Source: Deltaproteobacteria bacterium (GTDB lineage Bacteria > Desulfobacterota > Syntrophia > Syntrophales > Smithellaceae). From it: DNA of 55,000 bases. The position numbers and the translations under genes are program-made. This document shows, in pieces, positions 39,211 to 40,338 of this stretch (positions are counted from its first letter, which is position 1; every line of letters begins with the position of its first letter). The DNA lies in contig JANYAY010000026.1 in NCBI GenBank assembly GCA_025361065.1, positions 1 to 55,000 on the forward strand. The letters run 5' to 3'. The notes beneath the pieces are model-generated. The model was not told the DNA's origin, searched no databases, and worked only from the letters and a program-made list of their open reading frames with translations.

Positions 39211-39963
39211 TTGGACGCTGCCGAAGTATCAAGAGAGGATTTATTCAAAGCCTGTGAATCTTTATTCGGAACAGATATTGACGTATCTGTCGAATTTCTC
39301 CGTTATCTGAAGCCTGACGGTGTAAAAGCTGCTTTTCGCAGGAAGGCGCTGGAGACTCATCCTGATCGCGCCGTCATCCTCGCCGGCAAGAAGGACTTCC
39401 TGGAGATACGTTTTAAAGAGATCAACATGGCCTACCAGCTTCTGCAGGAATTTCTCAGTCACCCCTGGAAATACTCGCTCGATGAAAAAGGCGCCATTTA
39501 TGAGCGCAAGCAGCAACCAGTCAGGCCGGCCGCTCGCAGGAAAACACACAGTGCCCAAACGGAACCCCTTTATCGGGGCCGGATGCCGTCAAGAAGGCTT
39601 TTGTTCGGACAATATCTTTACTATGCAGGGAATATCTCTCTGGCCAGTATGATTAAGGCGATTGTCTGGCAGAGATTGCAGCGGCCTTCCGTCGGCGCCA
39701 TTGCCTCAAGCTGGGGATGGATAGAGGGTGCGGACATTCTTGATGTTTTACGTTCCCGCCGTTACGGTGAAAAATTCGGCGAGTGTGCTCTCCGCAGCGG
39801 CTATCTTTCCCAATATCAATTATCGTTATTGCTGAACCGGCAGCGGGCAATTCAGCCGCAAATAGGTGCATATTTTATTGAACAGGGAATGATTGACTCT
39901 CTGCAGCTTTATCAAGCAATTGCCGAGATGAAGAAGCACAACAAAAAATTCTGGTCTTACTAG
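39211..39963 (+). CDS. J-domain-like protein with helical C-terminal domain
   Basis: This 250-residue protein starts at TTG with AAGGAAA upstream. A J-like domain spans about 15-88: H-P-D at 50-52 preceded by F-R-R-K-A-L-E and followed by F-K-E-I-N-M-A-Y-Q-L-L. The C-terminal ~120 residues repeat a short pattern (L-F-G-Q-Y-L-Y-Y-A-G.., F-G-E-C-A-L-R-S-G-Y-L.., I-G-A-Y-F-I-E-Q-G-M-I) like the MshEN/GspE N-terminal fold, which in some proteins binds cyclic di-GMP; this assignment is tentative. It may bring DnaK to a partner of the neighbouring signalling proteins. Confidence 0.75.
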   Translation: MDAAEVSREDLFKACESLFGTDIDVSVEFLRYLKPDGVKAAFRRKALETHPDRAVILAGKKDFLEIRFKEINMAYQLLQEFLSHPWKYSLDEKGAIYERKQQPVRPAARRKTHSAQTEPLYRGRMPSRRLLFGQYLYYAGNISLASMIKAIVWQRLQRPSVGAIASSWGWIEGADILDVLRSRRYGEKFGECALRSGYLSQYQLSLLLNRQRAIQPQIGAYFIEQGMIDSLQLYQAIAEMKKHNKKFWSY

Positions 39964-39992: not shown

Positions 39993-40020
39993 TTGATCGG
40001 ATTTGCAGTTAGAATATAGT
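39993..40020 (+). promoter_or_regulatory. sigma70-like promoter of the selenoprotein gene
   Basis: TTGATC (39993-39998), 16-base spacer, TATAGT (40015-40020), 21 bases before the ATG at 40042. It suggests the small gene is transcribed on its own. Confidence 0.45.
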
Positions 40021-40041
40021 CACCACATCGCTGAGGTGAAA

Positions 40042-40338
40042 ATGAAAAAGGTTGTCAGTATATTTTTTTGCATTTTGTTTTTTGTAACTGTTCCCTCAGC
40101 AGTTTGGGGAGGAGAGAGAATCATCCAGTTGAATATTCCCGGTTGTTCGGCTTGAAACTCTAATGCCAGGATAGGTGCTATCCTGAAAAAAAATGCTGGA
40201 GTAAAAAAACACGAGACTAAGGGAAATGATCTGTTGGTTGTTACTTTTGATGACGAGAAGACCACCCTCGGCATGATTATCAATGAGCTCAAAAAGGGGA
40301 AATTTACAGCAACTGGCGAACCAATTTATTTAAAATGA
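40042..40338 (+). CDS. candidate HMA-like exported selenoprotein (CxxU) with in-frame TGA
   Basis: Read with TGA as selenocysteine, this is a 98-residue protein: a signal peptide (1 to about 24; M-K-K, hydrophobic core, A-V-W-G-G), then a heavy-metal-associated-like beta-alpha-beta-beta-alpha-beta domain. The metal-site motif C-S-A-U is at 35-38 (TGA at 40153-40155), where HMA proteins have CxxC. After the TGA the frame stays open for 60 codons with a normal domain continuation (I-G-A-I-L-K-K-N-A-G-V, then L-L-V-V-T-F-D-D-E-K-T-T, then G-K-F-T-A-T-G-E-P-I) and ends in TGA. GAGGTG precedes the ATG and a candidate SECIS hairpin follows the internal TGA. Function is probably periplasmic metal or redox handling. 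A nonsense mutation is the alternative, made less likely by the hairpin. Confidence 0.8.
40167..40185 (+). promoter_or_regulatory. candidate bacterial SECIS hairpin
   Basis: CAGGATAG (40167-40174), loop GTG, CTATCCTG (40178-40185): a perfect 8-bp stem. The first loop G is at 40175, with 19 bases between it and the internal TGA. This falls in the 16-37 base window known for bacterial SECIS elements, which need a G in a small apical loop. Confidence 0.7.

Follow-up and report, generated by a model that had tools for sequence, protein, structure and literature searches.

A candidate family of small HMA-like selenoproteins in the Syntrophales

Can an in-frame TGA that interrupts a short reading frame be taken as a selenocysteine codon, and what might the resulting protein do? 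The question is raised by a locus in a 55,000-nucleotide stretch of a Smithellaceae genome (hereafter the window; GenBank assembly GCA_025361065.1, contig JANYAY010000026.1, positions 1 to 55,000), where positions 40042..40338 of the forward strand would encode an HMA/MerP-like selenoprotein of 98 amino acids, followed by a TGA stop. A sequence-only reading had described this frame as interrupted by a single TGA, and this is borne out, as TGA occurs within the 98 codons only at codon 38 (40153..40155, forward strand), a column occupied by TGA or Cys in relatives. The surrounding motif is G34-C35-S36-A37-U38, in which Cys35 (40144..40146, forward strand) is the partner of the putative Sec38. 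The N-terminus (40042..40110, forward strand) resembles a signal peptide, with K-K, a hydrophobic core and small residues before residue 24; this pattern recurs in relatives, and the confidence of the structure model described below is low over this part. Of the expression signals proposed earlier, the ribosome binding site is plainly visible (GAGGTG, 40033..40038, forward strand), with similar sites in many relatives, whereas the promoter amounts to a weak sigma-70-like consensus match (TTGATC-16-TATAGT, 39993..40020, forward strand) that agrees at 9 of 12 positions, the stretch holding four promoter-like sites against a mean of 1.3 in shuffled versions. The open reading frame list contains no forward-strand ORF of at least 60 amino acids overlapping the gene, so a standard gene caller would miss or truncate it. 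An Rfam search of the window returned nothing at gathering scores.

Downstream of the TGA lies a hairpin (40167..40185, forward strand) exactly as the sequence-only reading had described it: an 11-nt spacer (40156-40166), a perfect 8-bp stem formed by 40167-40174 (CAGGATAG) and 40178-40185 (CTATCCTG), and a GTG loop (40175-40177). Its energy is -9.0 kcal/mol, and the 51 nt from 40154 fold with a z-score of -3.59, a value equalled by none of 200 shuffles. Bacterial SECIS elements are described as having a loop of 3-9 nt, a stem of 4-16 bp, a G in the first two loop positions, a spacing of 16-37 nt and a minimum free energy of -7.5 or lower (PMC13188914, Fig. 2 legend); the window hairpin, with a loop of 3, a stem of 8, G as the first loop base and a spacing of 19, falls within this description. 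Among the 1863 TGA triplets on both strands of the window, an 8-bp hairpin with a 3-nt loop at +11 follows only this one, and 20 have such a hairpin anywhere in the allowed range. The hairpin by itself is thus an event of about 1%, and it is conservation that decides.

Conservation was assessed in 99 Syntrophales genomes, a set that includes the genome of the window and counts the window locus itself (L009). Homologues were found in 73 of the 99, with 81 matches in all. Exactly one in-frame TGA is present in 78 of the 81, and the three that lack it all carry Cys instead (CxxC in G014 and G002, CxC in G098), giving the conserved Cys/TGA column that the earlier reading had set against random stops. 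All 73 homologue-bearing genomes keep a TGA copy, including G014, G002 and G098. Five exact duplicate loci were dropped before counting, and a profile recovered two extra TGA loci (L098 with CxxU, L100 with CxU); among 76 distinct TGA loci, the motif is CxxU in 69, CxU in 6 and YxxU in 1 (L085). Two pieces in G011, each at the end of a contig, may be parts of a single gene. A subset used for alignment (A1) comprises 63 of 78 TGA loci, leaving aside close relatives, fragments, two fused members and L098.

These counts bear on the reading that the locus is a pseudogene or an assembly or sequencing error, or that the real gene is an antisense frame at 40020-40292. The window genome (3.95 Mb, 97% complete) is in 186 contigs with 3.9% estimated contamination, and the antisense ORF does extend over 90 amino acids; yet a TGA copy persists in 73/73 genomes. 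The sense frame shows no further stop between codons -30 and +46 in any of 67 loci, while the antisense frame is open in only 20 of them (67 of 70 loci were compared, the other three being skipped by the edge rule of this comparison). Purifying selection is evident after the hairpin, where the median dN/dS is 0.14 (72/91 pairs), compared with 0.29 upstream (74/91 pairs of the same loci); these medians describe 14 of 70 loci, the remaining pairs being saturated. On conservation, dN/dS and open-frame counts, we reject the pseudogene, sequencing-error and antisense readings, which we regard as extremely improbable.

Named relatives of the gene occur in a delta-proteobacterial MAG (AlinenLipids) and in Smithella sp. 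SDB_sulfate1, Smithella belonging to the Smithellaceae within the Syntrophales. When named genomes were scanned, 15 loci came up: L040 and L041 carry TGA, and the other 13 are MerP-like, have no TGA at the site and bear gammaproteobacterial names in nearly all cases. A profile search across the phylum found matches in 117 of 395 genomes; many of the weak ones are free of TGA and sit within frames 650-950 codons long, which were read as P-type ATPases. Beyond the order, the TGA-containing matches among those read were L125, L127-L131 and a UxxU protein (L140), of which L131 breaks up after the motif, and two further rows with TGA came from G275 and G429. Among the gene-bearing genomes of the order, G084 is a single contig of 3,179,300 bases. 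In L096, the protein C-terminal to Sec contains NINGVILVER and YGDQGVTVTYDDDR.

The hairpin is conserved along with the codon. Seventy loci carry TGA at the CxxU column; covariation was scored over 69 of them (68 distinct sequences), L105, which matches L066 letter for letter in this stretch, being omitted. Across the eight pairs, 93.8% of cells are paired, and six pairs show compensatory changes on both sides. None of 500 shuffles reached the observed paired percentage, number of covarying pairs or covariation score, and 2 of 500 did so for further pair types. The weakest pairs are those at the ends, the outermost being unformed in 16 and the innermost in 15 of the 68 sequences, and all 69 triloops begin with G. 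Synonymous variation is also depressed over this segment (codons 39-49 have a pS of 0.12, where the upstream and downstream values are 0.60 and 0.65); Arg43 (40168..40170, forward strand), invariant as Arg in the 63 A1 rows, is encoded by AGG in 67 of 70 loci, although long ORFs of the window use AGG for 12.6% of their Arg codons. The Cys paralogues L101, L102 and L103, the last two from G014 and G002, lack the hairpin, with folding z-scores of -1.1 and -1.5 for L102 and L103. Measured against the conserved motif, the TGA of CxU members is shifted upstream by one codon; the hairpins of this class were inspected one by one, the covariation score covering the CxxU-column loci. That the unannotated gene with its in-frame TGA is a real selenoprotein gene can be held with very high confidence.

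The sequence-only reading had named selA, selB, selC and selD as a test of its claim, and all four are found in the window genome: a canonical selC; selA (608 bits) and selB (364 bits), each over its curated cut-off; and selD (379 bits, likewise over its cut-off), which carries a single in-frame TGA of its own. An apparent second selB with stops at C103 was discarded, as it is a 399-codon frame that reads by eye as EF-Tu. Across the order, 91 of 99 genomes have selA; of the 73 gene carriers, 67 have it, and the six that do not are 67-94% complete.

The same genome contains a second, divergent tRNA-Sec-like gene (G000:C127:12460-12553, reverse strand; L161/L177), with a UCA anticodon, U73 and no encoded CCA, features that fit the selC* tRNA-Cys class described in PMC7609411. 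Contamination is judged an unlikely source because the tRNA recurs in relatives: similar genes stand among L166-L194, and a model of it gives 34 matches in 32 of 99 genomes, a search in which strict filters may have lost some matches. The anticodon is UCA in 27 of the 30 matches that were read, GCA in 2 (called tRNA-Cys) and GGA in 1; all 30 sequences end in U, and one of them, L195, has a differing body and was not called by ARAGORN. Some copies adjoin YedE/YedF-like genes (eight neighbourhoods, by eye). A tRNA-Cys(UCA) of this type could read UGA38 wholly or partly as Cys, yielding a CxxC protein or a Sec/Cys mixture, and its occurrence in the window genome and in relatives, mostly with UCA, lends this some plausibility. 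We nevertheless consider it improbable, since the tRNA model finds nothing in 44 of the 73 gene-bearing genomes (29 of the 32 matched genomes carry the selenoprotein gene), the 97%-complete window genome has one SelB over the cut-off with no selB* found, and it holds a canonical selC and a selD with TGA alongside a hairpin of canonical SECIS type.

Read as selenocysteine, the codon belongs to a protein whose HMA-like fold, as claimed earlier, is upheld by profile matches and a structure model. The family profile matches MerP, CopZ and the HMA domains of copper ATPases. Against Pfam HMA (PF00403), the window protein scores 14.7, below the gathering score of 24.8, with only residues 40-88 aligned; the domain is found at E <= 0.01 in 21 of 63 A1 members and exceeds the gathering score in two fused relatives (29.5 in L095, 33.9 in L100). 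The structure model (mean pLDDT 77.3) has the order beta-alpha-beta-beta-alpha-beta, with helix 1 from residue 38, and its top Foldseek matches are a CopA domain, MerP and a copper-binding protein, three matches reaching E <= 0.001. Because MerP-type pieces were part of the input alignment, this support for the fold is not fully independent.

The register of the motif is another matter. The earlier placement of the TGA, precisely on the second cysteine of the HMA CxxC site, does not hold: two alignments set Cys35 against the Met of GMTCxxC (or the equivalent residue) and U38 between the two HMA cysteines, and the GMxCxxC metal motif is absent from the window protein. Within the family, the Cys paralogues L102 and L103 have a CxxC of their own, and it is to the second Cys of this motif that Sec38 corresponds; no Cys occurs within five residues after Sec in any of 76 proteins. 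In the fused CxU members, the Pfam match would, by our own count against the HMA consensus, put U near the first HMA Cys. The partner cysteine is lost in some members, with Tyr replacing it in 1 of 76 proteins (L085, YxxU) and GGU (L127) or VVU (L128-L130) in distant members; among the latter four, a SECIS-like hairpin folds in L127 and L130, and L128 and L129 show none clearly. After residue 24, 71 of the 74 family proteins longer than 80 amino acids have a single Cys, the exceptions being one fragment, L085 and the fused L095. It is Sec, rather than Cys, that is the constant residue of the family.

How does this family relate to selenoproteins already described? Among named profiles, the best is MerP (TIGR02052), also a small HMA-fold protein, which matches 62 of 63 A1 members at E <= 0.01; the window protein differs in scoring 34.6 bits against a cut-off of 92.55, in being without GMTCxxC and in having no MerT partner. 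NF041115 is likewise an HMA-like profile of (seleno)proteins, but its motif is UxxU where the present family has CxxU, and the window protein reaches 14.4 bits against a cut-off of 95. A MerP-like UxxU protein with two in-frame TGAs and a signal-peptide-like start in another genome (L140:1477-1779, forward strand) stands nearer to it at 80.8 bits, still below 95. The MerT/CopZ fusion-like selenoprotein profile NF045683 resembles the family in that its C-terminal part matches HMA-type domains (7 of 63 A1 members at E <= 0.01), but it includes a MerT part and has a cut-off of 375 bits; it was set aside as the parent family, 0 of 297 genomes exceeding the cut-off and many of its matches falling on HMA-type stretches within long frames. 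SelW-like and other CxxU thiol selenoproteins share the motif and a redox reading; SelW-like CxxU selenoproteins have a thioredoxin-like fold, and none of the profiles of these thiol selenoproteins matched the window protein, which passed no NCBIfam model.

In the literature, the 2008 GOS survey lists a selenoprotein family named ‘Mercuric transport protein MerP’, represented in those samples by two selenoprotein sequences and by no Cys homologue (PMC2398784, Table 2); that table gives no motif, and its sequences may belong to the Syntrophales family. Reviews of 2022 and 2026 include MerT, P-type ATPase and UxxU metal-binding selenoproteins, the word MerP being absent from the portions of text available (PMC9312934, PMC13188914), and the available portion of PMC12013277 contains no word beginning with mercur or HMA. 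A 2006 table gives 19 selenoproteins for Syntrophus aciditrophicus, none of those tabulated being MerP- or HMA-like (PMC1794560). Our literature search, which covered most papers less than in full, found no description of the family in Smithella or Syntrophales. A MerP selenoprotein family is already on record, and the Syntrophales family, well supported as a selenoprotein, can be placed with it as a variant of the same general kind.

The gene is solitary at most loci: Maf is transcribed away from it on one side, and on the other a mannose-1-phosphate-guanylyltransferase-like gene runs towards it. Clustering of neighbouring ORFs among the 76 loci gave Maf at 54, the guanylyltransferase-like gene at 53, a YggS-like gene at 48 and an RlmI-like methyltransferase at 34, the last two sitting further out; the families were checked on the L011 and window copies, and at some loci the contig stops within the neighbourhood. 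The window locus keeps the guanylyltransferase and methyltransferase side, and a DnaJ-domain protein (39211-39963, forward strand) lies upstream, where most relatives have Maf. The Maf, YggS, guanylyltransferase and RlmI-like neighbours say nothing about function. Other arrangements occur at a few loci. Two CxU members are fused to a Thioredoxin_9 domain (L095:1467-2201 and L100:1563-2297, both reverse strand), which reads WCPDS in L095 and WSPDS in L100, the first Cys thus having been lost in L100. Directly upstream of another family member is a DsbC-like protein with an in-frame TGA in a UxxC motif, D-P-D-U-P-Y-C (L075:1139-1924, forward strand). A PpiD-like foldase lies 3 nt upstream in L093 and is also found in L099, where it was read from its start only. 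In L089, the upstream gene encodes a dihydrolipoyl-dehydrogenase-like flavoprotein; no signal sequence was seen on it, so it may act in another compartment. These few fusions and neighbours, a handful of cases, may point to a role in thiol redox or folding.

The computations support the gene, its recoding, the SECIS element, the decoding machinery, the conservation and the fold class, whereas export, a redox role and partners are what we infer. SelB and Sec-tRNA would decode UGA38 as selenocysteine because of the hairpin at 40167-40185, and after export Sec38 would sit at the N-terminus of helix 1 in a beta-alpha-beta-beta-alpha-beta domain, with Cys35 three residues before it; in general, the mature protein would have no further thiol. 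The most likely task would be periplasmic selenol/thiol redox, not mercury shuttling to MerT, with a Cys35-Sec38 selenenyl-sulfide exchanging with disulfide-handling partners. The fold counts against this, being that of metal chaperones and not of a classic oxidoreductase. Taken as a whole, the description of the protein as an HMA-like, exported selenoprotein with a periplasmic selenol/thiol redox role is the one we favour, with moderate confidence.

Metal binding is the principal competitor. The sequence-only reading had proposed an altered affinity for Hg, Cu or Ag, or else a redox role. Its mercury component is unsupported: the CxxU motif is out of HMA register, the protein falls below the MerP cut-off, and MerT (PF02411) occurs in 1 of 99 order genomes and is absent from that of the window; for the remainder, metal and redox alike, the proposal would rest on inference. 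As a soft-metal or metalloid ligand, Cys35-Sec38, or Sec38 bridging two molecules, could bind Cu(I), Ag(I), Hg(II) or a related ion, for periplasmic buffering or hand-over to an efflux ATPase. The nearest folds and profiles (MerP, CopZ and copper ATPase domains) agree with this, as do the metal-type selenoproteins already listed (NF041115, NF045683, MerT and P-type ATPase UxxC), and a frame of 830 codons in the window genome gives two HMA-type matches and was read as a P-type ATPase from its length. Set against it are the displacement of the motif from GMxCxxC, the lack of a following Cys in 76/76 proteins, the loss of the Cys partner in some members, the rarity of MerT, and neighbours that are mostly housekeeping rather than resistance genes. 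We regard ligand binding of this kind as possible and clearly less likely than the redox role.

The locus adds a small selenoprotein family, present in most of the searched genomes of one order, that standard annotation would cut short. It shows Sec within an HMA-like fold at a displaced site, with Sec constant instead of Cys, and the family looks testable in a cultured syntroph. The co-resident tRNA-Cys(UCA)-like gene turns UGA decoding in the Syntrophales into a testable question as well. Here a more speculative picture, which we offer as a doubtful one, is of a Sec-centred HMA-fold enzyme, old in the Syntrophales and with Sec more conserved than its thiol partner, that in Smithellaceae-type genomes is combined with a Sec/Cys switch through selC* tRNA-Cys(UCA). 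If true, a SECIS-marked UGA in an exported protein would act as a selenium-dependent switch between Sec and Cys.
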